The position numbers and the translations under genes were made by a program. The notes under the pieces were generated by a model that saw only the letters and a program-made list of their open reading frames with translations, was not told the origin of the DNA and ran no database searches. A stretch of 64,000 nt of DNA from Bacillus rhizoplanae. GTDB taxonomy: Bacteria > Bacillota > Bacilli > Bacillales > Bacillaceae_G. The stretch spans positions 32,219-96,218 of the forward strand of contig NZ_CAKJTI010000011.1 of NCBI RefSeq assembly GCF_917563915.1, written 5' to 3'. Below, one piece after another: positions 7,917-64,000 of the stretch (the first letter of the stretch is position 1; the number at the start of each line of letters is the position of its first letter).

Positions 7917-8077
7917 TTTATCCCGTTATCCCGATATTTGCGGGCAGTAACACCCCCACCTCAAGATTCAGAGAGAAGCGAAGAAAATAGGTGACGGATA
8001 ACTGCCCATAAAAGCCCGATTAGTGAGAGCTTTCCATCATCGGGAGATAACCCCCACTGATGGAAGTTTCACTTTAT
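7917..8077 (-). repeat. bcr1 element between vWA and tubulin-like genes
   Basis: A full-length copy bounded by TTTAT at 7917-7921 and 8073-8077, reading in the orientation whose end is GGAAGTTTCACTTTAT. The right TTTAT contains the TAA stop of the vWA gene. Removing one TTTAT and the insert would leave the stop codon about 17 bases before the tubulin-like ATG. Confidence 0.9.
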
Positions 8078-15359: not shown

Positions 15360-16057
15360 TCTATTAATTAATATTCTACTAATTTTTTTGATTTTGTAAA
15401 GTGTTATTATTAAAAAAATTTAAAAAATTATTTTATTACAGTAATATTTATAATCATTCTGTAAAATAACTCAAGAAAAAAGACATCCCTTTACTATGTG
15501 GATGCTTAAATCCTTTTATTTATTACTATTTATTACTATTTTTCCAAAAAAACATATAAAACAATCATTTACAATATATTGCATTCTTATACATATCCTC
15601 TTTATGATTCTTTCATTTTATTCTCTTGTATTTCCAGCAAAACTTTCTCATGTTTTGTCTGACAATTTTATTTTTACTCTTCGTAACAATAGCAACACTC
15701 TTATTATTTCTTACACTATATAATTACGGACTTCTAACATAAAGTGAAACTTCCATCAGTGGAGGTTTTCTTCATCCCCCACTGATGGTTAGTTGAACCA
15801 ATCGGGCTTTTACGGGATAAAGCGATCGATACTAACCAAAAACGCTAATCCTTTTTACAAAATAACTTCCAGTGTGGAAAATCCATCGCCATTAACTGTT
15901 ACTGCATCCTTTCATTATTCTTTATTAAAATTTTGACTTTGTTAAAGAACATTATTGATTTTTCTTATTGAACAAACGGAGCAGGATAGTTAGAAGAAGG
16001 ATTAGGGCATTAAGTATGGAATAAATTTCTTAAATAACAAATAAAGGAGCGTATATA
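15360..16057. other. AT-rich intergenic region
   Basis: Apart from the bcr1 derivative at 15739-15821 I see nothing supported here. A plus-strand frame at 15496-15723 lacks a ribosome site and is low-complexity hydrophobic, so I do not call it a gene. Confidence 0.5.
15739..15821 (+). repeat. bcr1 derivative, 83 bp, right part deleted
   Basis: It starts ATAAAGTGAAACTTCC and ends TTTTACGGGATAAA. The CGGG of the internal TTACGGGCAG is joined to the CGGG of the terminal GCGGGATAAA, again a deletion between short direct repeats. Both ATAAA ends remain. Confidence 0.85.
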
Positions 16058-22759: not shown

Positions 22760-22812
22760 AATACTTCCCTCCTTTTTATTTTTTTCAAGCGATTTCGTAG
22801 CATGCTCTTTGC

Positions 22813-22957
22813 TTTGTCCCGCATTAACGGGCAGTAAGACCCCCACCTCAAGATTCAGAGAAAATCAAAGAAGATAGGCGTCCGTAAAAGCCCGATTGGT
22901 TCAACTAACCATCAGTGGGGGATGAAGAAAACCCCACTGATGGAAGTTTCACTTTAT
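22813..22957 (-). repeat. bcr1 element between livG and livF
   Basis: Bounded by TTTGT (mutated TTTAT, 22813-22817) and TTTAT (22953-22957). It is nearly full length, lacking part of the centre. Right after it, CCCGCATTA matches the first nine bases of another bcr1, so a tandem copy was once present; that remnant contains the livG stop codon. Confidence 0.9.
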
Positions 22958-37359: not shown

Positions 37360-37457
37360 TTTATCCCTCAACTTATGAATAAGTAAGAGCTTCATTAGTG
37401 AATGCTTTCTATCAGTGAGAAATGAGAAACCCGCCACTCATAGAAATTTCACTTTAT
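37360..37457 (-). repeat. Degenerate bcr1 copy in tandem
   Basis: It begins TTTATCCCTCAACTTAT and ends CATAGAAATTTCACTTTAT. Its final TTTAT is the first TTTAT of the next, well-preserved copy. Confidence 0.6.
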
Positions 37458-37603
37458 CCTGCATTAACGGGCAGTAATACCTCCACCTCAAGATTGAGAG
37501 AAGCGAAGAAGATAGGTGGGGGACAACTGCCCGTAAAAGCCCGATTGGTTCAACTAACCATCAGTGGAGATGAAGCCCCCCACTGATGGAAGTTTCACTT
37601 TAT
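37453..37603 (-). repeat. bcr1 element, full-length copy
   Basis: Bounded by TTTAT at 37453-37457 and 37599-37603, with all internal segments (ACGGGCAGTAATACC, CTGCCCGTAAAAGCCCGATT, ACCATCAGTGG). It lies between the divergent nrdD and plsY genes. Confidence 0.92.
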
Positions 37604-37700
37604 AAAAAAGAAATGTGATCTTTACAAATGTATGGTACAATATACGGGAAAAACTCTTTTTACCCTTTATCAACACATTTGAATAAAGGAGACTGAACTT

Positions 37701-43289: not shown

Positions 43290-43444
43290 ATAAAGTGAAA
43301 CTTCCATCAGTGGGGGTTTTTTCATCCCCCACTGATGGTTAGTTGAACCAATCGGGCTTTTACGGGCAGTTATTCCCCACCTATCTTCTTCGCTTTTCTC
43401 TGAATCTTGAGGTGGGGGCTTACTGCCCGTTAATGCGGGATAAA
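43290..43444 (+). repeat. bcr1 element, best-preserved full copy (155 bp)
   Basis: Bounded by ATAAA at 43290-43294 and 43440-43444. It starts ATAAAGTGAAACTTCCATCA and ends GTTAATGCGGGATAAA, with strong internal pairings: CATCAGTGGGGG with CCCCCACTGATG, CGGGCAGT with ACTGCCCG and CCCCACCT with AGGTGGGG. It can fold as a long branched hairpin. Confidence 0.95.
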
Positions 43445-49825: not shown

Positions 49826-50182
49826 ATGAGGAATAGAAAAAGCGGTTATGGTTGCCAGGAGGGTTGTCCTGTTGAAATAACACTAGATGTTATCGGCGGA
49901 AAATGGAAAGGTGTTATTTTGTATCATCTATTAGATGAAAAAAAGCGTTTCAATGAGTTGCGAAGGCTCATTCCCGGCATTACACAGCGAATGTTATCTT
50001 TACAATTAAGCGAACTAGAAAACGACGGAATTGTACATAGAAAAGTTTACCCAGAGGTTCCCCCTAAAGTAGAGTATTCTTTAACTGATTTCGGAAGAAC
50101 GCTAGAGCCGATTATTGTTCAAATGAGGAATTGGGGAAAAATGTACAAATCTAGATTAGTGGAAAAATCAGAAACACTATAA
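49826..50182 (+). CDS. HxlR-family transcription regulator
   Basis: A 118-residue winged helix protein: [20 protein letters not shown], then [20 protein letters not shown] and [16 protein letters not shown]. Two N-terminal Cys, C10 and C14, are placed where redox- and quinone-sensing relatives carry a reactive Cys. It diverges from a quinone reductase-like gene, the usual arrangement for such sensors. I see no convincing operator in the 142-base gap. Confidence 0.88.
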
Positions 50183-50281
50183 TAATAACTGTTTAATCCA
50201 CATGTTTTCTTGCAATAACATAATAATTTTTTAGCACATACAAGCTATGAGTTATATTAAGTCACAATGCAAGATTAAATG

Positions 50282-50317
50282 AAAATAGGAAGCTAAATTA
50301 TGTCAGCTTCCTATTTT
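50282..50317 (+). terminator. Terminator downstream of hxlR-type gene
   Basis: AAAATAGGAAGCT and AGCTTCCTATTTT make a 13-bp stem with a 10-base loop, followed by TTGATG. Confidence 0.75.
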
Positions 50318-50410
50318 TGATGTAAAATAAATAACTTTGTGACAGTTGTCTAGTAACAATAATTACGTATACTCATAACACGAACCGAGCACATAAATAT
50401 CCCCTATCAC

Positions 50411-51082
50411 TTAAACTCTTTGAAGTATATTAACTATAGATAACAACTCTTGTAAATCATCGATTACATGTTCATCTGTAAACGGATTTCCCCAAAACGC
50501 ATCCTTTTTCCATATTGCATGCATTCCTACATTTCGAGCTCCTATTACATCATTCTCTGGATGATCGCCTACATACACACTTTCTTCAGGAGTAACACCT
50601 AATCTACCTAAAGCTCTTAGGAAGATTTCAGCTTGTGGTTTTTTAAGCCCCTCTTGCTCTGACACTAATATGACATCCATATACTTATCAATCCCTAGAG
50701 CACGAATATTCAGTAGCTGGAATTCAGTGAATCCATTTGTGATTATGCCTAATGATATTCCTCTATTTTTAAGCTCTTGTAATACGTGCCCCATGTTAGA
50801 AAAAGGAGTACAGTGATGTTGAAAGTTGTTTATGTAATCCTCTAATAACTGCTCCCAAGTTAAACTAGAAATAGAATATTCTCGAAGTAATTGCTCATAT
50901 ACTTTGTCTTTCCAAACATAGCCCTTATTATCTAATTCAATAAATCGATTTACATATTGCTCTTCAGACACATCTTTTAGCTCATCGATATATCTCTTAT
51001 ATTGATCTTTAATAAAAAGTTTAAGAGAACGATCTCTATCTAATAGAGTTCCATCTAAATCGAAAATAACAGCTTTAACCAT
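50411..51082 (-). CDS. HAD-superfamily hydrolase
   Basis: A 223-residue phosphatase-like protein. Motif I is VIFDLDGTLLD (nucleophile D8), motif II GIITNGFT, motif III KKPQAEIF and motif IV YVGDHPENDVIGA. The cap is C1-type, as in YjjG-type nucleotidases or epoxide hydrolase-like HADs. The substrate is unknown. AGGAG precedes the ATG. It starts 29 bases after the GrpB-family gene, so the two form an operon. Confidence 0.88.
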   Translation of the reverse strand: MVKAVIFDLDGTLLDRDRSLKLFIKDQYKRYIDELKDVSEEQYVNRFIELDNKGYVWKDKVYEQLLREYSISSLTWEQLLEDYINNFQHHCTPFSNMGHVLQELKNRGISLGIITNGFTEFQLLNIRALGIDKYMDVILVSEQEGLKKPQAEIFLRALGRLGVTPEESVYVGDHPENDVIGARNVGMHAIWKKDAFWGNPFTDEHVIDDLQELLSIVNILQRV

Positions 51083-51111
51083 TCTTTCTCCTCCCCTTAC
51101 TTAAGCGCCTG

Positions 51112-51657
51112 TTACGCATCTGATTTTGGAGGAATCCAACCAATATTTTGACTCCATTTATCCGCTTTTCTTAAAATCTCCCAAATCAGAAAATCTTTTG
51201 CTTCTGTGTACCTGTGTCGGTCATTTTCGTACTCTTTCGCTAGTTTATATTTTAAGTCTTCATATCGTTTACAGTCTTCTGGATGATTGCGCATATAGTC
51301 TCTAAATAAGAGCGCAAGTTGCTCAGGCCAACTCCCTTCACGTCGCACATGTATATGTGTTCTCCTATTGCCAGAAGCTTCACGGAAATAACGTTTAGAA
51401 CGATCTAAATTATCTGCTCGATAAATAAATCCTAAACTTTCTAGAGGTTCCCTAAAAGAATCCAATAATTCTAAGGTTTTTACAGAAATTTGCACATCAA
51501 TAATTGGTTTTGCCGCTAAACCCGGTATCGATGTAGAACCAATATGGTCAATTCTTATCGCAACGTCCCCTAAAGCAGTTCTTAACGAATCACCTAGATT
51601 TTGAAACTCTCTTGGCCACTCACTTTTATAAGGTACTACAATAATTTTATCTGACAT
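51112..51657 (-). CDS. GrpB-family (UPF0157) protein
   Basis: A 181-residue protein with the GrpB core IRIDHIGSTSIPGLAAKPII and DVQISVKTLE, a nucleotidyltransferase-like fold. Members include fused dephospho-CoA kinase partners, but free-standing copies lack a known function. GGGGAGG precedes the ATG. It is the first gene of a two-gene unit with the HAD hydrolase. Confidence 0.87.
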   Translation of the reverse strand: MSDKIIVVPYKSEWPREFQNLGDSLRTALGDVAIRIDHIGSTSIPGLAAKPIIDVQISVKTLELLDSFREPLESLGFIYRADNLDRSKRYFREASGNRRTHIHVRREGSWPEQLALLFRDYMRNHPEDCKRYEDLKYKLAKEYENDRHRYTEAKDFLIWEILRKADKWSQNIGWIPPKSDA

Positions 51658-51862
51658 TCAAATTCCTCCCCAAATCCGCCTTACACTCTAAATCATATCA
51701 AGTTCTTATTATGTATCCCCTATTACACATCAATATCTTACTATAGATAATCCTAATGATATGAATTTCACAGGAGTAAAAAATACATTTCTATCATACC
51801 TAAAGGATTTTAACTGTAAATTGAAGTATGGAAATATGTATACTATTGAAGGAGGCAGGAGA

Positions 51863-52165
51863 ATGGAGATTAATTGGATACAATTGTTGTTTTGGCCTTT
51901 TATGATTGCCTCCATTATTTTTTCACTGTTTGGAATATATTTTAGAAAATCCAGCCCTTTGATGATTTCTGCAGTACTCATTATACCTTTATCACTCTAT
52001 TTGGTCGGATCTCCCCTATTTTCTGTGTGGGGACTCATTTTACCTTTTCTTTATGTGGGTGCAGCACAATCAATAAAAAAACAAAAAGTTTGGTTATCAA
52101 TCTTGTTTTCCATACCTGTTTATTTCTTAATTGGATGGCTTGGGTATACAGTACTAACTCAGTAA
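51863..52165 (+). CDS. Hypothetical three-helix membrane protein, 100 residues
   Basis: Three hydrophobic segments: LLFWPFMIASIIFSLFGIYF, PLMISAVLIIPLSLYLVG and WLSILFSIPVYFLIGWLGY. GAAGGAGG lies before ATG 51863; a longer frame back to 51761 has no such signal. Its 3' end overlaps the convergent phosphatase gene by seven bases. No family recognised. Confidence 0.7.
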   Translation: MEINWIQLLFWPFMIASIIFSLFGIYFRKSSPLMISAVLIIPLSLYLVGSPLFSVWGLILPFLYVGAAQSIKKQKVWLSILFSIPVYFLIGWLGYTVLTQ

Positions 52166-52710
52166 GTATTTACACCACGAGTCATATTGAAATTATATAC
52201 TTTATATTCTCCATTATCGGATGAAAACCTTAAAATATTGCCGTCTTCTGGCATACCTTCAAAATAAGCGCCAATACAACCAGTTGTACATCTATGACCA
52301 GATAGTAAAATGTTTAATTCTCTTTTGCTGTATTCAACTTCAAGTTCATGCATGAAGCCAAAAACTCTTTTCATGTAACTGTTGATTTCTTCAACACCAT
52401 TATAAACACTAGAATCAGGAACGACTCCAACCATTTTTACTTCGCCTTTTTTTAATCCATCAGCTTCTCCTAAATCAAAAACATCAAGCCTTGCATCAGT
52501 TATTGCTTTTATACCCGTTGCTATCTCTGCTGTTTGAATAGCTCTTACTTGTGGAGAAGAAAATACATAATCAAATTTTACATTTTGAAGTTTGTCTCTT
52601 AAACATTCGGCTTGCTCTATACCATATTCATTTAATGGAAAACCTAATCTCCCTTGCAGTCTTCCTTCTTTGTTCAAATCTGTTCGCCCGTGTCTAATCA
52701 CATAAATCAT
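52159..52710 (-). CDS. Histidine phosphatase family protein
   Basis: A 183-residue phosphoglycerate mutase-like phosphatase. IYVIRHGRTDLNKEGRLQGR carries the phospho-accepting His and its Arg, VFSSPQVRAIQTAE the second Arg, and LLSGHRCTTGC the second catalytic His. The substrate is unknown. GGGGAGGG precedes the ATG. It is convergent with, and overlaps, a small membrane protein gene. Confidence 0.88.
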   Translation of the reverse strand: MIYVIRHGRTDLNKEGRLQGRLGFPLNEYGIEQAECLRDKLQNVKFDYVFSSPQVRAIQTAEIATGIKAITDARLDVFDLGEADGLKKGEVKMVGVVPDSSVYNGVEEINSYMKRVFGFMHELEVEYSKRELNILLSGHRCTTGCIGAYFEGMPEDGNILRFSSDNGEYKVYNFNMTRGVNTY

Positions 52711-53003
52711 TGCTGCACCCTCCCCGTTACTTGAGAAATTTTTATTCTCCCAAATTTGATAATTACTCTTGCCTGTTTTTCAAACGCTCCATGATACGAA
52801 GTCAAATAGAACTATCACTTTTATGCACTTAACATTCAGAATTTTATTGCTTTTAATCAGATAATCACATATGATTTTTTTCTGTTCAGCGACTACTATG
52901 ACATCCTATTTCATTTTTTCCTAATTACGATTTTATGTACTAGTTTGTTTTTTAATTTTAATGCCTTTACTATTAAATTCAGTACTCGATAGTTGAATAA
53001 CTG
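52711..53003. other. Intergenic region, nothing recognised
   Basis: AT-rich sequence without an ORF, strong hairpin or repeat that I can support. Confidence 0.4.
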
Positions 53004-53267
53004 TTACCCCATAAGATGAGATAAAAAATATCGAAAACCATAAGCACCTAAAGAACTAATACCTGTAACTAAAACTGCAACTGCTAAATATGGATTATAG
53101 CCAGATTGTTTTCTCGAACGATATAAATAAAGAATAGATAGACATAAACTAATGATAAAAAAAACCATCCATACAGAGTTGGGAGCAAAAACTTCGAAAT
53201 TAGTAAAACAAATTACTATATAGCAAATATTCACCAAGAGCAATAGCACTAAGATAAATTTCTTCAA
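53004..53267 (-). CDS. Hypothetical three-helix membrane protein, 87 residues
   Basis: It begins MKKFILVLLLLVNICYIVIC, continues with APNSVWMVFFIISLCLSILY and ends with LAVAVLVTGISSLGAYGF. The start is a TTG at 53267 with GGAAGGTG eight bases upstream. The first helix could be a signal anchor. No family recognised. Confidence 0.65.
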   Translation of the reverse strand: MKKFILVLLLLVNICYIVICFTNFEVFAPNSVWMVFFIISLCLSILYLYRSRKQSGYNPYLAVAVLVTGISSLGAYGFRYFLSHLMG

Positions 53268-53488
53268 AATTACACCTTCCTTTTACCAGGTTAACCAACC
53301 GAATTTTGGCATACAAAGAAATGAATGTAAGTTGATTTGAATAGAAAATTTTACAGTCTCTTTTTATTCAATATAAATTCTCTTATTACCTTTTAAGCTA
53401 TATAAAAAGTATTATCAAAACTCTCACACCATGATAAGCAGATCCTAATGAAAAGTTCCAATTAATCCTTCACCTACATATTTTCGAA

Positions 53489-53668
53489 TTATCTCTTCGA
53501 ATGGAACAATTTACTTATCTTCTTTTTCTTTCCTTTGATAAGTTGATAAGTAGGGACTTTTTCTGCTTTTAATGCTTTTCTTACTGTATTTCTTGAGGCA
53601 TTTAATAATTTGGTAATAGATCGAATAGAATGTCCTTCTTGTTTTAGTGCTCGAATGGGTGCCCCCTT
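53489..53668 (-). pseudogene. IS21-family transposase (IstA) N-terminal remnant
   Basis: The frame encodes IRALKQEGHSIRSITKLLNA then SRNTVRKALKAEKVPTY and a Lys-rich end before TAA. This is the N-terminal helix-turn-helix of IS21-type IstA transposases. The start region and the ~350 downstream residues, including the DDE domain, are missing, so it is inactive. Confidence 0.7.
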
Positions 53669-53725
53669 GCTTAAACTCCTCTCATTTCGTTATGAGAGAA
53701 TTATATTTTTTATTTTAGGGATGGG

Positions 53726-53763
53726 TCACTTTTCGATGCGAAAAGTGGGTCAGTTTTCATTGT
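53726..53763. repeat. IS21-type terminal repeats
   Basis: GGGTCACTTTTCGATGCGAA and then GTGGGTCAGTTTTCATTG repeat the TGGGTCAnTTTTC motif typical of IS21 family ends. They mark the left edge of the island. Confidence 0.55.
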
Positions 53764-53819
53764 AAATCTACACAGTATGTCCAAGTTTGTTAGATTCCTT
53801 GCACCAGACCTAAAAAGTA

Positions 53820-53847
53820 TTGAATAATTCTTTATATTCAGTATAAT
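53820..53847 (+). promoter_or_regulatory. Promoter in left inverted repeat
   Basis: TTGAAT (53820-53825) and TATAAT (53842-53847) are 16 bases apart, pointing into the island toward the first amidohydrolase gene. The same pair occurs in the right copy. Confidence 0.6.
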
Positions 53848-54002
53848 TAACTTGTAACTATAATAACGTTTTTAGTTACTATGGGTATACCACTTGATTT
53901 CTAATAGAAGATTCCCCGTAAATCAAGTAGTAGCAAAAATTTTTGTACATTTTTGCATTCGGTATCCCCCACAAAAATGTTTCTTTCAAATAAACAGGAA
54001 GA
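53820..54002 (+). repeat. Left copy of the island's ~182-bp inverted repeat (promoter-leader module)
   Basis: It is about 90% identical to the reverse complement of 63540-63721. It contains a promoter, a partly decayed repeat CTTGTAACTA/TAGTTACTAT, the repeat CTTGATTT-N19-AAATCAAG at 53893-53927 and a tail ending AAATAAACAGGAAGA. The copy lies upstream of the first amidohydrolase gene, the right copy upstream of the FAD oxidase gene. Confidence 0.88.
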
Positions 54003-54170
54003 GCAATTTGCCTATTATCACAAATATGATCGATGAGAAACTAGAGGACGCTCAAGAACAATACACCAATCTATTAGACATAATAATTTAAATATTGGCA
54101 TGAGTTGTGCAACAGTAATGTTGTGCAATGATAATAATGCAACTTTCCAAGAAAATAAGGGGGTTTAAGA

Positions 54171-55772
54171 ATGCCAGACATCGTATTTCTTCATGGCGAG
54201 GTTATTACGGTAGACGAACAGAATCGAATAGTAGAAGCGATTGCGGTAAAAAGGAACCGGATTATCGCCGTCGGTACCTCAGAGGAGATTAAGCGTCTTA
54301 TCAGTCCGCAGACAACGGTAATTGATTTGAAAGGGAAAACCCTCTTGCCGGGATTTATCGATTCACATTTGCACATTTCCTCGTATGGCATAGACAAGCT
54401 GGGGGTAAGCTGCAAAGCTACACATATTCATTCCCTGCAGGATATTTTTCAGGATTTACGTAAAAAAGCGTCCGGGCTCCCGGCAGAAAAATGGGTGCGG
54501 GCTTGGGGCTTCAATGAGACCAAAATCGCGGAACAGCGGTATCCGACTAGAGAAGAATTGGATCAGATTTCAATGGAGCACCCGATTATCATTATACGCG
54601 CGTGCAACCATATTTCGGTGGTCAATTCAAAAGCACTGGAAATCCTCGGTATTCACAAGGATACGCCCGATCCTAAAGGAGGGATGATTGAACACAGCGC
54701 CGAGGGAGAGCTTACAGGTCGTTTAATTGAAACAGCTCATTTCCAAATTTCCAATAAAGTAACCTATTCCGAAGAAGAAACAGCCCAAGCCTTGGCGTTA
54801 GCGTCTGCCGATTTTGTAGCGGCTGGGATTACCAGTATCCATGATGCAGGTTGCAATGACTCCGAGGGGTTTCGAGCGATGCATGAGGCGGTTCGTCAAG
54901 GCTTGGTCAAAGTGCGCATTTATGCGATGGTCTGCGCATTAGACAATCCCGAATTATTTTTGGAAAGCATGATTAACGCTGGAATGGTAACAGGCCTAGG
55001 GAATGACAGGTTTAAAATCGGACCGGCAAAGCTGTTCACGGATGGCAGCAGCAGCGGGCCGACCATTGCTACCCGTAAGCCGTATACAAGTAACCCAGAG
55101 GATTACGGTATTTTGTACTATACACAGGAAGAACTAAACCGACAATTAGTAGAGGCTCATAAAAAAGGATTCCAGATTACAGCCCATGCACAGGGAGATC
55201 GTGCAATTGAAATGGTATTGAATTGTATAGAGGCCGCCCTGAAGGAATATCCTCGCCCAAATGCCCGACCACGTATTGAACATGCAGGGATTTCAGAACC
55301 GGATCTAATTGAACGGATGAAACAGCTTGGTGTCATCCCGATACCTAACCCTGCTTTCTTCTATGAATATGGAAATGGATACGTCCATAACTACGGAGAT
55401 CGGGTGAATCAAATGTATCCACTTCGTGACTTTTTTAAAAATAACATCATTGCAGCAGCGGGCTCCGATAGCCCAGTGACCGATTATCGTCCGCTATTCG
55501 GAATTCAAGCGGCGGTGAACCGGAAGAGCAAGCAGGGACAGGAGATTGGAAACGATCAAACTGTTTCCGTAACAGAAGCGATCCGGGCTTACACATGGAA
55601 CGGAGCTTACGCGAGCTTTGACGAACAATACAAAGGGAGCATCGAAGTTGGAAAACTGGCCGATCTAGTGATCCTGGACGGAAGCATTTTGCAAGCTGCC
55701 CCTGCCGATATCGCTGATCTTCCTGTTCACATGACAATCATTGATGGAGAGATCGTCTATCAAGCTGGATAG
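54171..55772 (+). CDS. YtcJ-type amidohydrolase (Amidohydro_3), GC-rich
   Basis: A 533-residue metal-dependent hydrolase. The metal-binding HxH is in GFIDSHLHIS (about residues 63-72); later ligands fit ITAHAQGDRA, PRIEHAGIS and AAAGSDSPV, and the end has the family's GSIEVGKLADLVILD. It cleaves a C-N bond of an amide or cyclic amide; substrate unknown. Codon use is more GC-rich than its neighbours (many CGG, GGC, CCG), which suggests separate acquisition. GGGGG lies eight or so bases before the ATG. It is read from the left inverted-repeat promoter. Confidence 0.85.
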   Translation: MPDIVFLHGEVITVDEQNRIVEAIAVKRNRIIAVGTSEEIKRLISPQTTVIDLKGKTLLPGFIDSHLHISSYGIDKLGVSCKATHIHSLQDIFQDLRKKASGLPAEKWVRAWGFNETKIAEQRYPTREELDQISMEHPIIIIRACNHISVVNSKALEILGIHKDTPDPKGGMIEHSAEGELTGRLIETAHFQISNKVTYSEEETAQALALASADFVAAGITSIHDAGCNDSEGFRAMHEAVRQGLVKVRIYAMVCALDNPELFLESMINAGMVTGLGNDRFKIGPAKLFTDGSSSGPTIATRKPYTSNPEDYGILYYTQEELNRQLVEAHKKGFQITAHAQGDRAIEMVLNCIEAALKEYPRPNARPRIEHAGISEPDLIERMKQLGVIPIPNPAFFYEYGNGYVHNYGDRVNQMYPLRDFFKNNIIAAAGSDSPVTDYRPLFGIQAAVNRKSKQGQEIGNDQTVSVTEAIRAYTWNGAYASFDEQYKGSIEVGKLADLVILDGSILQAAPADIADLPVHMTIIDGEIVYQAG

Positions 55773-56548
55773 TCCTAAGGCAATGAAGCATTAGGCGTAA
55801 AAGTAAATGTTTATCTTGTTCGATCGATAGGTGATCGGACAGGGTAAACATTTTTATCTGTCTCTGGTGAACCAAGTATCTTTATACTGTACTCATCGAT
55901 GTATCGTTTGTTCAGGAGATATATCCAACTATCATGAAAATGCAAGCAAACAACCGGGTGCCAGAATTGAAAGGTTGAATCAAAACAGCTACCGCGGGAC
56001 CTTTGCCCGGATAGCTGTTTTGATTTAGTGGTGAAGAATGTGTCGGTCGAGGGGGATTCCAGTTCAGAATTGTTTTTATACGCCCTATTGATGTAATGCG
56101 GAATCTCCCATTTGCACGTGAGACCTTTCGGGAACGTGACCGACGTGCTGTGTTTGATCAGATTGACAGTATATCGAACCGTGACGTGTACCTACGAAGA
56201 TGATGTGATTAACCTCGCATACTCGAACGATATGCAATGCCAAATTGGTTCAAAAAAGGATCTTACGTTATGGATTAAAAATACTTGAGATAGTCGAGTT
56301 AAGTGCCTTTTCGGACAGGGAGTAGTAGTGTATTATGGAAGATATGTACCTTTCCGTTTTTAATTGGGAGTTTGATTGCTTCCATCCTGCTAAAAAGAAA
56401 GGTGTTATGTGTCAATAAGGGAATTGTCCCAACAGAAAATATGGCACAGACACAGACAAAGGTTAAAAATAATTTTCAAGGTGCGAAAGTTAAGTAACTT
56501 AGTTTAGATAACATTTTCAACAAATTTCTAATTTAAGGAGTACTAGGA
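55773..56548. other. Intergenic debris between amidohydrolase and tetR
   Basis: AATCAAAACAGCTA and TAGCTGTTTTGATT (55978-56026) form a strong GC-looped hairpin, a likely terminator ~200 bases after the amidohydrolase. After 56040 stop-broken frames such as EDDVINLAYSNDMQCQ and, near 56310, FGQGVVVYYGRYVPF frameshifted to LIGSLIASILLKRK look like decayed genes, the last perhaps of a membrane transporter. None is identifiable. Confidence 0.4.
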
Positions 56549-57103
56549 ATGAGGGAACGCATTATAAGAGCTTTTAATGAAGAGATTCATGATAAAGGCA
56601 TGAAGTTCACAATGGATGATTTAGCAAACCGTATTGGTGTAAACAAACGATACCTTTATCAACATTTTTCTTCGAAAGCTGAAATTTTGGAGTTAATCAT
56701 TGATCAATCGTTATCGGAATTCGATGAAAAAACAGAACAGATTATGAATAATACATCTTTAAGCCTGATTGAAAAAATCAGACAGATTTGTACTGTGTTG
56801 CCCAATTTTGAGTTTTACGACTTCAAAGTGTTGGAACAAATGAAGCGCTATTACCCGGAGCAATGGACAAAAGTGAATGACGCTTTGAGCGAATGGGAAG
56901 CTCTGCGTTTATTACTCGAAGAAGGTATACAGCAAGGTGAACTCATTGAAATCAATACAACACTTGCTGTAAAGCTGATTATAGATGCTACAAATTCAAT
57001 CTTTGATCAACGTTTTTACATGGAAAATAATATTACCTTACCGGAAGCACTCTCTTCTATTGTAGACGTATTATTGTTCGGCTTAGTCAAAAATAAATCA
57101 TAA
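56549..57103 (+). CDS. TetR/AcrR-family regulator of the island
   Basis: A 184-residue repressor with the helix-turn-helix MKFTMDDLANRIGVNKRYLY and QHFSSKAEILELIID (about residues 18-52). The C-terminal domain is helical with YYPEQWTKVNDAL, seen in several TetR proteins. AAGGAG precedes the ATG. It is the only regulator within the island, so it may act on the paired inverted-repeat promoters. It is convergent with the second amidohydrolase gene. Confidence 0.87.
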   Translation: MRERIIRAFNEEIHDKGMKFTMDDLANRIGVNKRYLYQHFSSKAEILELIIDQSLSEFDEKTEQIMNNTSLSLIEKIRQICTVLPNFEFYDFKVLEQMKRYYPEQWTKVNDALSEWEALRLLLEEGIQQGELIEINTTLAVKLIIDATNSIFDQRFYMENNITLPEALSSIVDVLLFGLVKNKS

Positions 57104-57116
57104 TAATGGTCTAATA

Positions 57117-57152
57117 AAAAAATGAAAGGAACATATATTCCTTTCGTTTTTT
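57117..57152. terminator. Bidirectional terminator
   Basis: AAAAAAATGAAAGGAA and TTCCTTTCGTTTTTT pair with one mismatch around CATATA, between convergent genes. Confidence 0.8.
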
Positions 57153-57156
57153 ATCT

Positions 57157-58806
57157 TTATATGGGAACCTTCTTACATCCTGCATCTTGAAAAACGATAG
57201 CTCCATCAACCATAGTTAAGACTACTCGAACGTCTCGTATTTCTTCAACTGGGATTTCGAAGAGGTTTCTGTTTAATACAACAAGATCTGCCAGTTTTCC
57301 CACTTCAAGTGTGCCCAATTCCTTTTCTCTGAATGATCCATAGGCAGGGGATAACGTATAATCTTTCAAGACTTCGGATAGTGACAGACGCTCCTGCGGA
57401 TTCCATCCTTCTGTCGGTGATCCATCATATCCAATTCTTGTTAGTGCACGATAAATGCCTAGCATCGGATTTAATTGCACAATTGGATAATCAGTACCAA
57501 AAGCCAACATTGCACCTGAATCCTTTAACGTTTTCATTGCAAAAACAAAGGGCTCACGTTCTTTTCCAATACGTGAAACATAAGTTATCCGTTGCTCCTT
57601 ACCAAGACCCAAATGTTCTGGTTGCATTGATGCGATCACTCCAAGCTTTTGGAAACGAGCGATTTCATCCGAATGAATAACCTCCACATGTTCCACACAA
57701 TGCCTAGCATCTCGCTTACCATTCTTTTTCTGGGCTTCCTCAAAAGCATCCAAAGCTAGGCGAATCGCACCGTCACCAATTGCATGAAGGCGGATTTGAA
57801 AGCCTTCTCGATCAGCCTCTACTATCCATTTTTTAATCGCATCTGGCGAAACAGCTGTTTCACCAAAGTTTTCTGTTTTATCTGAATATGATTCAACTAA
57901 AAACGCGGTATAGCCGGTTATTACTCCATCAACAAACTGTTTCAACCCCGAGACTCGAAGCTTGTCTGATGCATAAGTATCACGCAATTGTTTCGCACGT
58001 TCTATATCATCATTTAAAGGAGGTGAAAGATGAATCCGCGCAGTTAATTCTCCGTTTTTATCCAGATCACTAAACAATTCAAAATCCTGTAATTTTTCCA
58101 TAGCAGGCGATCCATACAAATCGTTAACTGAAGTCACACCCAGTGCAGCCGCCTGTCCGAGAAATCCTTTCATCATTCTCATACGGCGTTCCCTTGAAAA
58201 ATTGAATGCATGATTCGACACGAGTGCAATCGCTGTCTCATACAAAATACCCATTGGTTCTCCGTTTTCATCTTTTGCAATAATCCCGTGGGGCGGATTA
58301 TCTGTATTTCGATTAATACTTGCAATCTCAAGCGCTTTGCTATTTACCCAGGCATAATGCCCTTCCATATGAAAGAGAATAACAGGACGTTCTGGGAGTA
58401 CGCGATCGAGTGCAGCACGATTTGGAAGCTGCTTGTTGTCCCAATTGCTTTGATCCCAAGAAAAACCAATAATCCATGAATCTTCTGGTCTTGAATCGGC
58501 AAAATTGGCTACCATTTTTATCGCTTCTTCTTCTGAGTGTGCATCGGCTAGAAAAACACTGTCTTCTGCAAGACTTCCTCCAAGTATATGCAAGTGAAAA
58601 TCATGAAAGCCAGCCATAATAAGTCGATCGGAATAATGATATACTTTCGTGTCTGGTCCAATAAACGGATTCATTTCTATTTCGGAACCAATGGCTGCAA
58701 TCTTATTATTAATAATGGCGATATAAGCAGGGATGGGCTTATCCGCAAGACCTGTAAAAACAGCATTACTTGAGATAACGATATCAGCTTTTTGATTTAT
58801 ATTCAT
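57157..58806 (-). CDS. YtcJ-type amidohydrolase (second copy)
   Basis: A 549-residue metal-dependent hydrolase. HxH lies in GFHDFHLHILGG (about 67-78); further ligands fit IRLHAIGDGAI, CVEHVEVIHSDE and AFGTDYPIVQLNP, with GTLEVGKLADLVVLN at the end. It shares domain order with the product of 54171-55772 but is clearly diverged and AT-rich like its neighbours, so it is not a recent duplicate. ATG 58806 has GGAGGT eight bases upstream. It is the last of the leftward gene set. Confidence 0.86.
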   Translation of the reverse strand: MNINQKADIVISSNAVFTGLADKPIPAYIAIINNKIAAIGSEIEMNPFIGPDTKVYHYSDRLIMAGFHDFHLHILGGSLAEDSVFLADAHSEEEAIKMVANFADSRPEDSWIIGFSWDQSNWDNKQLPNRAALDRVLPERPVILFHMEGHYAWVNSKALEIASINRNTDNPPHGIIAKDENGEPMGILYETAIALVSNHAFNFSRERRMRMMKGFLGQAAALGVTSVNDLYGSPAMEKLQDFELFSDLDKNGELTARIHLSPPLNDDIERAKQLRDTYASDKLRVSGLKQFVDGVITGYTAFLVESYSDKTENFGETAVSPDAIKKWIVEADREGFQIRLHAIGDGAIRLALDAFEEAQKKNGKRDARHCVEHVEVIHSDEIARFQKLGVIASMQPEHLGLGKEQRITYVSRIGKEREPFVFAMKTLKDSGAMLAFGTDYPIVQLNPMLGIYRALTRIGYDGSPTEGWNPQERLSLSEVLKDYTLSPAYGSFREKELGTLEVGKLADLVVLNRNLFEIPVEEIRDVRVVLTMVDGAIVFQDAGCKKVPI

Positions 58807-58971
58807 TTGCAAACACCTCCAATATGTTTAAATATTCTGAATTTTATTTGCGTAAAGTAAGTAGCAATTGAATATGACGCAAGATTGGATAACGGCGCTG
58901 TGTACCGAAAACCACAAATATTTAGGCAAAGTATACGGCTGTGATAATCATATGCCACTCCTAAGTTCACA

Positions 58972-59262
58972 TTATTTCAAATTGATCTCATGGTTCATTT
59001 TATAATTCTTTTTCAAAAATTCCGGGCAGTCCCATTCACAAACAAGATCTTTAGCCAAAGAAACGACCCAGTCCTTTGTAATATGATACTTTTCTCCATC
59101 TACAGTAATAAACACTTCACCGTCTGTCACATAAAAAACTTCCTGCTCTTCTACGTGCCAAGTTCCTTTACTAGGTTCGCCTATCCATGGCTCCCAAGTG
59201 TCTACACTTAATCTTTGTGCTTCTTCAGCTGTAATTTTTTTCGCAAAAAACATTCTCATCAT
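58972..59262 (-). CDS. Cupin-domain protein (EutQ/DUF861 type)
   Basis: A 96-residue single cupin. EEQEVFYVTDGEVFITVDGE and DWVVSLAKDLVCEWDCPEFL correspond to the two cupin motifs, although the usual HxH metal ligands are reduced, so it may not bind metal. Relatives serve in ethanolamine use or as ureidoglycine-type enzymes. Several in-frame ATGs (59262, 59259, 59253) share one AAAGAGAG site, so the start is uncertain by three residues. It lies behind the MATE gene. Confidence 0.75.
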   Translation of the reverse strand: MMRMFFAKKITAEEAQRLSVDTWEPWIGEPSKGTWHVEEQEVFYVTDGEVFITVDGEKYHITKDWVVSLAKDLVCEWDCPEFLKKNYKMNHEINLK

Positions 59263-59310
59263 CTCTCTTTCTTGTAAATAATTTTAAAAGATTAATTGAT
59301 ATCAGTATGC

Positions 59311-60717
59311 TTACGTTACTTTTGGTTCCTTTAAACGTTTCAACTCTTTTCGAAGAAAATAAATCGCAATAAGAACACCTGGAATTTCAGCAGCTGGAGC
59401 GGAATACCAAATACCATCAACTCCCCAATATTTTGGGAAAATAAACATGAACGGGAATGAAAAAAACAACATTTTGCTAACATTAATAAACGTTGCGGAC
59501 CAGTTTTTCTCTTGTGATTCGAAATAACCGGAGATCAGCAAACTAACGGCATTTAATGTAAACATGCAATTAAATACAATTGTCGTCCAGATTCCGAGTT
59601 TCTGTAAATCTGGATTGCCTCCAGAGAAAAATGACATAATTGGATTTGCAAAAATAATTAGTAAAGCTGTCGCAAGCAAAAAGAAGGCAACCGTAAAAAT
59701 AAGTCCAATCTTAATTGCTTGTTTAACACGATCAAGATTGCCCGCACCGTAATTATAACTAATAATCGGTTGAAGTCCCGTCATCCCACCGAGCGCCGCT
59801 AAGGCGAGCAGATTTGTAATGTAACCGTTTTGAACCGTGAAAGCGGCAACGTGCAGCCCGCCACCGTAGCTTTGCAGTAAGTTATTAAAGAAAATAATAG
59901 AAAAAAACATCATGAGCTGACTCGAAAAAGATGCAAAGCCTGTCCAAGCCACTTCACCAATTGTCTTGAGATTAATCATCATATCTTTTATTTTTGGCTT
60001 AAGCTTTGTTTTACCGAACCAAAAATAAAAGATGAGTAAAACAGGGATCGATTGTGCAATTGTATTCGCCCACGAGGAACCCATCAGCCCCATGTCATAT
60101 TTCGTTATCATAATCCATTCTGCAATTCCGGCAACAACCGCTGCAACTAACCAACTGTTCATTGATAATATAGGTTTTTCATCGATATTGGTTAAAATAC
60201 TTAGTACAACCGCCAATATCGTTATTGGCAATGAAATCCACAATAGTCGGCTGTATTTCACCGCATATGGAAGTGAATCCTGACTTGCTCCGAATAAAGT
60301 CATGATTTCATTTTCAAAGACCAATCCAAGTACAGCTAGCAAAATGGAGACGAAAAGAGTAAACCATAAAGTTTGTCCCATAGTACTCCTAGCTTCTTCG
60401 ATTTTCCCTTCTCCAAGCCGAAGTGAAATGACCGCTCCGGCTCCTATACCAAAAAGAACGCCAAGCATACGGGTAATAACCGTGACCGTAAATCCAATTC
60501 CGATCCCTTCGATTTCTAGCTCCTGAAAGCCGCTGACGAAATAGCCATCGACAACCGCTACCACTCCAAGAATCGCATTCGCCATAATTCCTGCCAAAGC
60601 AAACCGTAAATATAGTAAAGGAATACTTTTGGTTCCCAGTGCTGAATCATTTACTGGCTTATTCATCATTTCTGCTTTTTCTTTCTTCGATGAGGGACGG
60701 TTTCCTGCTATTTCCAT
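59311..60717 (-). CDS. MATE-family efflux transporter
   Basis: A 468-residue membrane protein with 12 helices in two halves. ALGGMTGLQPIISYNYGAGN near residue 300 is the family-typical segment, and MLGVLFGIGAGAVISLRLGE matches it in the first half. MATE proteins expel organic cations using Na+ or H+ gradients. Here it may export an amine or its product. AGGAGG lies eight bases before ATG 60717; an ATG two codons earlier is too close. It is read with the ALDH and FAD oxidase genes upstream. Confidence 0.88.
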   Translation of the reverse strand: MEIAGNRPSSKKEKAEMMNKPVNDSALGTKSIPLLYLRFALAGIMANAILGVVAVVDGYFVSGFQELEIEGIGIGFTVTVITRMLGVLFGIGAGAVISLRLGEGKIEEARSTMGQTLWFTLFVSILLAVLGLVFENEIMTLFGASQDSLPYAVKYSRLLWISLPITILAVVLSILTNIDEKPILSMNSWLVAAVVAGIAEWIMITKYDMGLMGSSWANTIAQSIPVLLIFYFWFGKTKLKPKIKDMMINLKTIGEVAWTGFASFSSQLMMFFSIIFFNNLLQSYGGGLHVAAFTVQNGYITNLLALAALGGMTGLQPIISYNYGAGNLDRVKQAIKIGLIFTVAFFLLATALLIIFANPIMSFFSGGNPDLQKLGIWTTIVFNCMFTLNAVSLLISGYFESQEKNWSATFINVSKMLFFSFPFMFIFPKYWGVDGIWYSAPAAEIPGVLIAIYFLRKELKRLKEPKVT

Positions 60718-60762
60718 ACTCATACCCTCCTAAAAATAGTTTATACAGCAAGTTCAGCCAAA

Positions 60763-62235
60763 TTAATTTGCATACCAACCTACAGGCTTAGCATGCTGGT
60801 GAATATTGATTTGCTTCATTTCCATAAAGTGCTCCAGTCCAACAGTACCTAAGGCTCTTCCGATTCCACTTTGCTTATATCCCCCCCAAGGCCCTTCAAC
60901 ATAAGCGAGGTGATAACTATTAATCCAAGTAATTCCCGCGCGCAATTTACTAATGACACGTTTTGCTCGATCCACGTCTTCAGTAAATACAGCACCAGCT
61001 AAGCCATAAATGGAATCATTAGCTTTTTGGATTGCATCTTCCTCATCTTTAAATTTCTGTACAACAAGGACTGGACCAAAAATCTCTTCCTTAACAATAC
61101 GCATATTCGTGTTTACATCAGCAAAGATCGTTGGTGCAATAAAAAATCCTCGATCAAGTCCATTTTCTGTTAAGCGCTTACCACCACAAACTAATTTTGC
61201 CCCTTCTTCGATTCCACTCTTGATGTAATGTAAAACGTCATTCATATGAGCCTCGTTTGTGAGCGCTCCCATTTCAATGTTCTCGCTTTCCCCGTTGCCA
61301 ACTACAATCTTGCTTGCACGCTCAGCCAATCTTTCAACAAATTTATCGTAAATTGTCTCTTGTACAAGCAGACGGGATGCAGCTGAACAAACTTGCCCAG
61401 CATTGTGGAAAATACCGAACATCGCATTCTCGACAGCAGTTTCAAAATCTACATCGTCGAACACAATAAGCGGAGATTTACCTCCCAGTTCAAGTGTAAT
61501 TTTTTTCATATTTCCCGCAGCTGCGCGCATAATGCTTTGGCCTGTTTTTGTTCCGCCGGTAAAAGCAATCTTATCAACATCATGGCTCTCGGCAAGCTCA
61601 TTCCCAACTTTTGATCCAGGTCCCAATACCAAGTTTGCCACTCCGGCCGGAAGCCCGACTTCCTCCATAATTTCAAATAATTTGAATACGCTTACAGGAG
61701 TGACCTCTGCAGGCTTAATTACAATTGTATTTCCGGCAGCGAGTGCAGGAGCAATTTGCCAAACCGCTAACATAAGCGGGAAGTTCCAAGGTACAATAAG
61801 TCCACAAACACCAATCGGTTCATGAATAATAATTGTTTCCGAAGAATCAGCACGAGTGTAAGATTCTTTTTTCATGCCTTTGATCAAGTCAGCATAATAG
61901 CGGAAGCATTGAATCGACACCGGAATATCCACATAAGTTGTTGCACGAATAACCTTACCGTTATTTGCAGTTTCCAAACGTGCAATTTCATCCGCCTTTT
62001 CTTCAAGACGATCTGCAATCTTATAGAGATATTCAGCTCTTTCATCAGCCGATAAATCCGACCAAATCCCGCTGTCAAACGCTTTGCGAGCCGCCTTGAT
62101 TGCCGCCTTTGCATCGTCTTCTGATCCATCAGCAGACGATGCAATCACCTCTCTAGTTGCAGGATTAATAACGTTTCTTCTAGCACCGGATAACGCTTCT
62201 ACCCATTTCCCATCAATAAACATGTTAATTTTCAC
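60763..62235 (-). CDS. NAD(P)-dependent aldehyde dehydrogenase
   Basis: A 490-residue ALDH of the betaine/aminobutyraldehyde dehydrogenase group. It has PWNFPLMLAVWQIAPALAAG, FTGGTKTGQSI, the catalytic Glu in LELGGKSP and Cys in HNAGQVCSAASR. It would oxidise the aldehyde made by the FAD oxidase encoded 13 bases upstream. The start is a GTG at 62235 with AAAGGAG eight bases upstream. Closest function by context: PuuC-like oxidation of an amino-aldehyde, which is inference. Confidence 0.9.
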   Translation of the reverse strand: MKINMFIDGKWVEALSGARRNVINPATREVIASSADGSEDDAKAAIKAARKAFDSGIWSDLSADERAEYLYKIADRLEEKADEIARLETANNGKVIRATTYVDIPVSIQCFRYYADLIKGMKKESYTRADSSETIIIHEPIGVCGLIVPWNFPLMLAVWQIAPALAAGNTIVIKPAEVTPVSVFKLFEIMEEVGLPAGVANLVLGPGSKVGNELAESHDVDKIAFTGGTKTGQSIMRAAAGNMKKITLELGGKSPLIVFDDVDFETAVENAMFGIFHNAGQVCSAASRLLVQETIYDKFVERLAERASKIVVGNGESENIEMGALTNEAHMNDVLHYIKSGIEEGAKLVCGGKRLTENGLDRGFFIAPTIFADVNTNMRIVKEEIFGPVLVVQKFKDEEDAIQKANDSIYGLAGAVFTEDVDRAKRVISKLRAGITWINSYHLAYVEGPWGGYKQSGIGRALGTVGLEHFMEMKQINIHQHAKPVGWYAN

Positions 62236-62248
62236 AATCAACTCTCCT

Positions 62249-63526
62249 TTACGCAAAAATATCAACCAGTTTAAAACCAATATGCGCTAGATTTACAAGC
62301 ATCGTTTTCTGATTATGGAACGGGAATGATTTTAGGCGTTCCTTTTCAAATCGATATCCACCTGCACTCCCCGTAACGATCCATTGTGCCAATAACTTTC
62401 CGAACAGTGTCGAGAGAGAAGCGCCGTGGCCCGTATAACCTGTTGCGAAATATGCGCCTTCTTTAGATCTGCCGATAACCGGAAATGTATCAATTGTAAC
62501 CCCGATAAATCCACCCCAACGGTATTCAATTTTGCTTCCTGCCAGTTTCGGCATCAAGTTTACCATCGCATCGTAAACTTTTTGATACACGCCATCATCT
62601 AAGTTTGGACGAATATCGCCACCGCCAAATACGATTCGATTATCTGGTGTGCGACGGAAATAGTAAAGGAAACTACTCGTATCAAAAACCATGCGATCTT
62701 TAGGAATGACAACATTCAACAATGACTCTGGAAGCTGTTCAGTTGCAATAATACGTGCCGAAATTGGCAGTACGCCTTTGTTTAGTTCACTCATGATTTT
62801 TCCAGAGTAACCATCTGTCGCCACAATAATGTCTTTCGCAATAACAGAACCTTTTTCTGTTTCAACTTTCACACTATTTTGACCGTACTCGATGGATAAT
62901 GCTTTAGAATGCTCAAAGATTCTTGCACCGATCGATTTAGCTGCTTCTCCCAAACCAATTGCATAATTCAGTGGCTGGAACGAGTAACTCGAGTCGTCGA
63001 CTAAGCAACCATAATAAACTGGGGAATCGATCTCTTGATGCAATTGACTTCGATCAAGCACTCTTGATTCGTACCCGAAATTTTTGTTTAAATATTCGCT
63101 TTCAAGTTTCAATTCTTCAAAATGTTTGGCTTTGTAAGCCGCTACAATGTGACCCGTATTTCTAAAGTCGCAGTTGATTTGATGTTCGTCAATAATGTTT
63201 TTTACCAGTTCAATACTAAACAAGGAGAGATCGTTTAGCTGTCTAGCCTCGTCGGGACCATACTTTTTGGCAAGCTGCTGCATCGTTGGCTTATAGCCTG
63301 GCAATACCATCCCACCGTTACGACCGCTGGCGCCGTATCCGATCGTTTCTTGCTCTAGGACAATGACATTCTTTCCTAATTTTCGCAAATGATAAGCAGA
63401 GGAAAGACCTGTGAAACCAGCGCCAATAACGACAACATCTGCCTCTTCATTTCCTTCTAGAGTTTTTCCTTTCTCATAGCTGTTTGCAGTCGCTGTCCAT
63501 AGAGAAAGTGTATTCATTTGATTCAT
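62249..63526 (-). CDS. FAD-dependent amine oxidoreductase (DAO/OrdL/PuuB type)
   Basis: A 425-residue flavoprotein. The dinucleotide fold starts VVVIGAGFTGLSSAYHLRK, then YGASGRNGGMV, and the end has FATGYTGHGASLSTLFGKLL, all typical of the glycine/gamma-glutamylputrescine oxidase family. It probably oxidises a primary or secondary amine to an aldehyde plus ammonia and H2O2. ATG 63526 follows GAAGGAAG; the open frame back to 63598 lies inside the inverted repeat. It heads the leftward operon of the island. Confidence 0.88.
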   Translation of the reverse strand: MNQMNTLSLWTATANSYEKGKTLEGNEEADVVVIGAGFTGLSSAYHLRKLGKNVIVLEQETIGYGASGRNGGMVLPGYKPTMQQLAKKYGPDEARQLNDLSLFSIELVKNIIDEHQINCDFRNTGHIVAAYKAKHFEELKLESEYLNKNFGYESRVLDRSQLHQEIDSPVYYGCLVDDSSYSFQPLNYAIGLGEAAKSIGARIFEHSKALSIEYGQNSVKVETEKGSVIAKDIIVATDGYSGKIMSELNKGVLPISARIIATEQLPESLLNVVIPKDRMVFDTSSFLYYFRRTPDNRIVFGGGDIRPNLDDGVYQKVYDAMVNLMPKLAGSKIEYRWGGFIGVTIDTFPVIGRSKEGAYFATGYTGHGASLSTLFGKLLAQWIVTGSAGGYRFEKERLKSFPFHNQKTMLVNLAHIGFKLVDIFA

Positions 63527-63539
63527 CTTATCACTTCCT

Positions 63540-63721
63540 TCTTCCTGTTTATTTGAAAGAAACATTTTAGTAGGGATACCGAATGCAAAGGTGTACAAAA
63601 TTTTTTTCTACTACTTGATTTACGGGGAATCTTCTATTAGAAATCAAGCGGTATAACCCTTGTAACTAAAAACGTTATTATAGTTACAAGTTAATTATAC
63701 TGAATATAATGAATTATTCAA
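63540..63721 (-). repeat. Right copy of the island's inverted repeat (promoter-leader module)
   Basis: Reverse complement of 53820-54002 at about 90%. It keeps two intact internal repeats: CTTGTAACTA-N12-TAGTTACAAG at 63659-63690 and CTTGATTT-N19-AAATCAAG at 63614-63648. It forms the promoter and leader of the FAD oxidase operon. Confidence 0.88.
63694..63721 (-). promoter_or_regulatory. Promoter in right inverted repeat
   Basis: On the minus strand TTGAAT (63716-63721) and TATAAT (63694-63699) are 16 bases apart. The 32-bp palindrome that follows overlaps the expected transcription start, a position suited to a repressor site. Confidence 0.6.
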
Positions 63722-63874
63722 CATTTTTTTGTGACAAGATAGTATGGCTAAGGGTTCTGGTGCAAAAATAAAATAAAAGAGAATAAAACGCATATATTCC
63801 TAATGGAATCCTATCTTATGCTGCAAGTCCACACAATTGATGGATGAATTCTTTCTGATTTTGGACAGACTGGT

Positions 63875-64000
63875 TGGACTTATCCCCGTCAAGTAGACAA
63901 CTGTAAAAAAGACTATGCAGCCATCGAAATTCGATATTCGATCGGAGCTCGATGATTGAGTCGTTTTTGGAATCGTTTGTAGTTATAATGATAGATGTAT
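63875..64000 (-). mobile_element. IS3-family insertion sequence, one end (runs past window)
   Basis: TGGACTTATCCCCGTCAAGT then AGACA at 63875-63899 looks like an IS3-type terminal repeat. The transposase C-terminus follows on the minus strand. The element continues past 64000, so its length and intactness are unknown. Confidence 0.65.
63913..64000 (-). CDS. IS3-family transposase OrfB, C-terminal end (cut by window edge)
   Basis: The visible 28 residues read YHYNYKRFQKRLNHRAPIEYR and end ISMAA before TAG. The pattern YxxxRxxxxLxxxxPxEYR is the C-terminus of IS3-type OrfB integrase-like transposases. The catalytic DDE residues lie beyond the edge. It would insert at DNA breaks made by the OrfAB protein. 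Confidence 0.75.
   Translation of the reverse strand, partial: YIYHYNYKRFQKRLNHRAPIEYRISMAA

Follow-up and report, generated by a model that had tools for sequence, protein, structure and literature searches.

In a stretch of 64,000 nucleotides of Bacillus rhizoplanae DNA (contig NZ_CAKJTI010000011.1; hereafter the window), a catabolic gene island is bounded by two inward-facing copies of one promoter-leader module, one of them upstream of the operon of a flavin adenine dinucleotide (FAD)-dependent oxidase and the other facing an amidohydrolase gene. We consider it very likely that the module is a duplicated sigma-A promoter and TetR operator, with a leader attached, controlled by the TetR family regulator encoded between the copies. 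The same pair of modules occurs in two further clusters, one in Bacillus sp. MUM 116 (locus L001, genome G001) and one in genome G086 (locus L033). The elements on which this proposal depends are the following (window coordinates).

53812..54002, + strand: left module copy (promoter, operator, leader and orphan FAD ribosome-binding region); 93% identity to the right copy, orthologue in L001
63540..63729, - strand: right module copy, upstream of the FAD oxidase operon; orthologues in L001 and G086
53820..53847, + strand: left sigma-A type promoter, TTGAAT-16-TATAAT; consensus scan, aligned in all six copies
63694..63721, - strand: right sigma-A type promoter, TTGAAT-16-TATAAT; consensus scan, aligned in all six copies
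53854..53879, + strand: left putative TetR operator, GTAACTATAATAACGTTTTTAGTTAC; core and spacing match those before TetR relatives
63662..63687, - strand: right putative TetR operator; core and spacing match those before TetR relatives
56549..57103, + strand: TetR family regulator, putative repressor of both module promoters; domain match and comparison with relatives

The near-identical, inward-facing copies described in the initial annotation were borne out, at 93% identity over about 190 bp. With gaps, 53812-54002 aligns to the reverse-complemented 63540-63729 at 92.7% identity over 191 columns (93.1% of 189 aligned bases); the ungapped arms, 53812-53968 and 63573-63729, share 93% identity, and the pair is the longest of five inverted repeats listed for the window. 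Both copies are very AT-rich (27% G+C; adjoining genes 34-47%, the window 36.2%). The remaining features reported earlier were also found: TTGAAT-16-TATAAT is present in each copy, the start codons lie outside both (ATG of the FAD oxidase at 63526, of the amidohydrolase at 54171), and the two operons differ in base composition, with 47.0% G+C in amidohydrolase 1 versus 41.6% in the FAD oxidase, 42.4% in the dehydrogenase and 39.6% in the MATE transporter gene. The 3' end of the right copy is the ribosome-binding region of the FAD oxidase gene, and the left copy carries that region, too, in its 3' part, with no FAD gene behind it. A short sequence, TTGCACCAGA, lies outside both window copies in inverted orientation (53799-53808 and 63756-63765); in L001 it is not repeated on the right.

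The promoter aligns across all six copies, some of which carry single-base changes. The palindrome GTAACTA-N12-TAGTTAC sits, in both window copies, about where transcription should start. It had been described as decayed on the left, with the consequence that control of the two operons might differ; however, its core has no mismatch in either copy, and neither statement finds support. Of the six known copies, as judged from the alignment, the right window copy is the only one in which all three extra outer pairs counted in that description are formed.

The operator is supported by comparison of the regulator with its relatives. The window protein carries a TetR_N domain (PF00440, 41.8 bits; cut-off 24), and all three module-bearing clusters contain this TetR, the proteins of L001 and G086 being 88-90% identical to that of the window. 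The families of G086, G001 and G006 supplied relatives in 8 of 24 (E 1e-25), 2 of 193 and 3 of 11 genomes (both E 1e-50), respectively, and twelve loci, 37-62% identical to the island TetR, were examined after exclusion of the module-linked ones. Within 100 bp upstream of tetR, a match of at least 9/10 to AACTA-N12-TAGTT was present in 11 of the 12 loci, compared with a mean of 0.11 and a maximum of 2 in dinucleotide shuffles; the best match lay at -39 to -57 of tetR in all twelve. The recognition segment reads VNKRYxYQHF and the half-site GTAACTA in the three module-linked cases, versus [IV]SK[RK]TxYxxF and AAAC[TC][AT] in the 12 relatives; recognition residues and half-site appear to change in step and make a candidate matched pair. 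A match to the window MATE transporter is close to tetR in six of the twelve. By comparison of this kind, assignment of the putative operator is strong. In eight of the loci (L039-L044, L049 and L051) a site after tetR has its asymmetric interior reversed relative to the upstream site, and two such sites flanking the gene could allow inverted-repeat pairing or bridging by the repressor.

Dispersal of the module without relation to these genes, which had been named as the observation that would speak against a regulatory role, was looked for and not found. A BLAST search with the module (E 1e-4) through 397 genomes of the order gave two positive ones, G001 and G086, with two copies each, all in the island; a covariance model scan of 397 genomes recovered, in the same two, three of the four copies known outside the window, with no further hit at E 0.01. 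No third strong copy was detected in G001, where the next best match reached E 0.006 over 27 bases, and plasmids gave weak matches only, in 34 records at an E limit of 10, all with less than 80% coverage. Exact searches with a 35-mer in viral contigs and a 20-mer in genome contigs returned nothing, a weak result given that the L001 and G086 copies differ in the 20-mer; module searches of 200 and of 39 genomes were likewise empty and are weak, with no positive genome among them. A strict scan for GTAACTA-N12-TRGTTAC in 30 genomes revealed three sites in G001 (the two modules and one inside a gene that reads by eye as pheT) and the two modules in G086, and mainly shows that there are few further targets in these two genomes.

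In the mechanism that we favor, RNA polymerase would use TTGAAT-16-TATAAT at both copies, and a TetR dimer would bind GTAACTA-N12-TAGTTAC over the transcription start, thereby blocking both promoters. The repressor would be released by an inducer, perhaps an amine on which the oxidase/MATE operon acts. G086 would then represent the simplest form of the system. There, the left copy is followed by tetR, which suggests autoregulation, and the right copy by the genes for FAD oxidase, dehydrogenase, MATE transporter and cupin; no amidohydrolase match was found in the examined stretch of this locus. The G086 tetR copy shares with the FAD copy of the same genome the promoter and operator (30/36 and 27/33 positions kept) and little of the rest. 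Amidohydrolase 1 intervenes between the left copy and tetR both in the window and in Bacillus sp. MUM 116, and would hence be placed under the repressor.

Several observations weigh against this interpretation. The promoter consensus alone occurs at the level of shuffled sequence (9 sites versus 8.9 expected in 53700-57300, and 2 versus 1.9 in 63400-64000), so that support for the promoter comes from its conservation in other genomes. By single-base shuffling, a 3.5-kb locus is expected to give 1.7-4.6 matches of 8/10 to AACTA-N12-TAGTT, and L045, whose TetR is 37% identical, reaches only this common level. The twelve relatives are not independent of one another, and the module-bearing genomes known are three only. 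A second site of at least 9/10 lies within 100 bp after tetR in 8 of the 12 relatives (shuffles: mean 0.09, maximum 1), which the simple model does not explain. The lack of a strict site in the other 28 of the 30 genomes scanned is weak evidence, given that the pattern written backwards, as a control, was found in 8 of the 30, G001 and G086 included; moreover, many of the 28 were not searched for this TetR. Finally, the window tetR is 2.5 kb from the left copy and behind a terminator-like hairpin, and its autoregulation there may have been lost.

Between the copies the genes follow in the order amidohydrolase 1, tetR, amidohydrolase 2, cupin, MATE transporter, aldehyde dehydrogenase and FAD oxidase, as detailed below.

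54095..54112, + strand: sigma-54-like promoter TTGGCATGAGTTGTGCAA of amidohydrolase 1; same bases in L001 and in L009, preceded in the latter by a sigma-54 activator gene
54171..55772, + strand: amidohydrolase 1 (Amidohydro_3); domain match
55806..55852, + strand: intrinsic-terminator-like hairpin between amidohydrolase 1 and tetR; consensus scan
57157..58812, - strand: amidohydrolase 2; protein scan
58972..59262, - strand: cupin (EutQ-like); protein scan
59311..60723, - strand: MATE transporter; protein scan
60763..62235, - strand: aldehyde dehydrogenase; protein scan
62249..63526, - strand: FAD-dependent oxidase-like protein (DAO); protein scan

The sigma-54-like assignment of TTGGCATGAGTTGTGCAA was made against the sigma-54 consensus. 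Terminator-like sites number 6 in 53700-57300, with 2.8 expected from the consensus scan. The best NCBIfam models, pipecolate oxidase for the oxidase and betaine aldehyde dehydrogenase for the dehydrogenase, both fall below their cut-offs, so neither names the substrate.

Related operons were found under quite different upstream regions. When the FAD oxidase was used as query, ten loci were obtained: nine share 83-93% identity with it, and the tenth, L010, has 25% and was excluded from later comparisons. The island of L001 is the same, and its two modules also face inward; amidohydrolase 1 and TetR there are 94% and 88% identical to those of the window at the protein level, and amidohydrolase 2 matches only through the last part. 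The aldehyde dehydrogenase gene of this locus (L001:11378-12846) looks broken, since its match is split into two overlapping pieces that lie in different frames. Six of the other eight close loci (L002, L003, L005-L008) have a GTGGAGT..ACTCCAC-type palindrome upstream of the FAD gene, with one mismatch in L008, and the start of a divergent MerR-like gene, recognized by eye and, in L002, covered over its whole length. In L004 the comparable regulator has a Pfam match to MerR, and the FAD gene sits behind a cupin-like gene. L009, from Aneurinibacillus, shows the order PAS/sigma-54 activator, sigma-54-like promoter, amidohydrolase 1, FAD oxidase, dehydrogenase, MATE transporter, cupin. TetR was not matched at 1e-10 in the stretches L002-L010; the genome of L009 has a relative of 60% identity elsewhere. 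Among the 397 genomes, the FAD protein was detected at E 1e-150 in four, two of them module-bearing and two (G191 and G305) with a MerR-type upstream region; no viral relatives of it were found, and its plasmid relatives (1483 records) were all under 60%. Positions 56063-56185 of the window, between amidohydrolase 1 and tetR, are 76% identical to the cupin-like gene of L004 and look like a gene relic. A dispersed repeat of about 75-160 bp, resembling a miniature inverted-repeat transposable element, occurs in the window at 7926-8077, 15739-15812, 22812-22957, 37452-37605 and 43290-43444, and relatives of it flank the L004 FAD cluster on both sides (9410-9476 and 14690-14852).

These comparisons bear on how the two copies arose. 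The left copy was probably the promoter of tetR before amidohydrolase 1 came between them, because the left copy of G086 directly precedes tetR and the window tetR leader (56300-56374) matches that of G086 at 87%. Amidohydrolase 1 probably brought its own sigma-54-like promoter and came to lie behind the left copy. Of the proposal that two operons of different base composition had come under the TetR at 56549, the part concerning the regulator has gained support, with the motif recurring before relatives of this TetR and the protein encoded in all three module clusters; the part concerning history has not, as amidohydrolase 1 probably took over the promoter of tetR. The direction of copying seems to have been from the FAD side to the left copy. 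This is suggested by the end of the left copy, a FAD ribosome-binding region that also precedes the FAD gene in L004 and L009, both without the module.

An extension of this history would make tetR and its paired promoter-operators a portable cassette, joined to more than one operon lineage in replacement of MerR or sigma-54 control, with its copies kept matched by gene conversion. We regard it as conceivable but doubtful. It draws on incongruence of the FAD tree, on sites shared within genomes, and on lower conservation of the left module than of its flanks. Among the two-state sites of the four window and L001 copies, four unite the copies of one genome, none left with left, and two crosswise. 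When the window is compared with L001, identity is 86.8% in the left module, 92.8% in the spacer beside it (module against spacer, Fisher p 0.08) and 95.0% in amidohydrolase 1; it is 85.8% in the right module and 91.2% in FAD. Gene conversion in the window's lineage is suggested at most, because the two copies within L001 are only 84.7% alike and the module-spacer difference has a p of 0.08. A single clade of TetR-headed copies was rejected in the FAD gene tree (p-AU 0.0007) and not rejected in the 4.2-kb alignment of FAD, aldehyde dehydrogenase and MATE genes (p 0.065); both tests were run after the first tree was seen. L004, in which no dehydrogenase match was found, is missing from the long tree, and G191 and G305 were used for the FAD tree alone. 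L001 varies in placement: it stood beside the MerR-headed loci in the first tree, outside a starred group of the window, G086, L004, L005 and L009 in the FAD tree, and unresolved with the window, G086, L005 and L009 in the tree of the long alignment. The upstream head of the operon may have been swapped. If the cassette did exist, both operators in one genome would be expected to change together.

A different function for the module, as mainly a regulatory leader RNA (a riboswitch or protein-binding RNA) duplicated for one ligand, with TetR secondary, appears improbable to us. The hairpin repeat reported for both leaders is present.

53893..53927, + strand: left leader hairpin, CTTGATTT-N19-AAATCAAG; 5' side mostly missing from the G086 tetR copy
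63614..63648, - strand: right leader hairpin; alignment and folding

The left leader folds better than its shuffles (z -3.09), whereas the right one reaches a z of only -1.91. When the paired structure is taken as the operator arms, the hairpin CTTGATTT-N19-AAATCAAG and an outer ATACCG/CGGTAT stem, 98% of 105 cells are paired in the five full copies that also defined it, and four changes are to G-U; the G086 tetR copy, with part of its leader missing, was excluded from the RNA model and the pair counts. There were, however, no two-sided compensatory changes and two unpaired cells of the 105, and the shuffle control cannot discriminate. No Rfam model matched at its gathering score in 50000-64000 (three were listed, all below it), a terminator-like site was absent from both leaders in the consensus scan, and the G086 tetR copy does without most of the 3' half and the 5' side of the hairpin. 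A structured leader RNA is possible but unproven.

The cluster itself has moved horizontally between genomes, because its FAD protein is 92-93% identical between the window and L001, G086 or L009, and the window's topoisomerase B subunit (ParE by eye) is only 85, 83 and 59% identical to its best match in G001, G086 and G006, respectively. It had been proposed that the repeats are terminal repeats of a composite mobile unit; such a transposon-like unit would be mobilized by an enzyme recognizing its ends. Besides the greater likeness of the cluster than of its hosts, homology to L001 and G086 stops near the outer end of each copy (at 53773 and 63744 with L001, at 53809 and 63730 with G086), with no match to L001 or L033 beyond these ends at E 1e-3, the window having only 256 bases right of 63744. 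Transposase remnants also lie outside both copies: an HTH (helix-turn-helix)/IstA-like one, named by eye, within 53480-53700, and an rve_2 integrase-core end within 63880-64000. Nevertheless, a scan of the seven genes that the copies enclose revealed no transposase, nor was one found in G086, where five island genes fill the interval and the two copies share promoter and operator and not the inner part. Words shared near the ends are only 6, 8 and 9 bases long, the two longer ones AT-rich, which gives no convincing target-site duplication, with no empty site compared; the operons of L002 and L009, without the module, also end at gene edges; and G001 lacks, as noted, a third strong copy. The proposal is accordingly quite unlikely. 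That the likeness of the copies is a chance duplication devoid of regulatory meaning is very unlikely: the left module is less conserved between the window and L001 than the adjoining spacer and amidohydrolase 1, as given above, but the pair recurs across three genomes in three contexts, and promoter and operator are its best-kept part in G086.

Control of a duplicated promoter-operator by the TetR between its copies would be ordinary in kind; the apparent history of promoter copying and swapping is unusual, and the evolutionary series is informative. It presents one catabolic operon of Bacillota under three unrelated controls (TetR, MerR-type and sigma-54 activator) and preserves, in G086, an apparent intermediate form. 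For this TetR subfamily it also provides an operator rule open to testing, together with DNA-recognition residues and an operator half-site that are candidates for having changed as a pair. No title or abstract opening in the literature searched describes the module, which does not establish its absence from print.

The closest parallels are systems of the TetR/TetA and QacR type, autoregulated TetR-family repressors with an efflux or catabolic target operon. The window shares with them a TetR_N protein, a palindromic operator by a sigma-A promoter, and a regulator gene clustered with a transporter. Unlike in those systems, the module consists of two promoter-leader copies of 190 bp that are convergent rather than divergent, and its left copy in the window faces an amidohydrolase with a sigma-54-like promoter of its own. 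The TetR-MATE pairs of Bacillota (L039-L044) are alike in having a TetR of 56-62% identity, an AACTA-N12-TAGTT-like operator and a MATE gene close by; they differ in that the operators flank tetR closely, the half-site has AAAC and not GTAAC, the MATE protein is only 23-26% identical to that of the window, and the 3.5-kb loci gave no match to the oxidase or the dehydrogenase at 1e-3.

Another parallel is offered by horizontal regulatory transfer, in which switched intergenic regions give one operon unrelated upstream regions across strains (PMC5890482). The FAD operon likewise has unrelated upstream regions, partly incongruent with the FAD gene tree. In contrast to that description, the differences here extend across genera, the regulator gene is in the cluster, and so is a second copy of the region.

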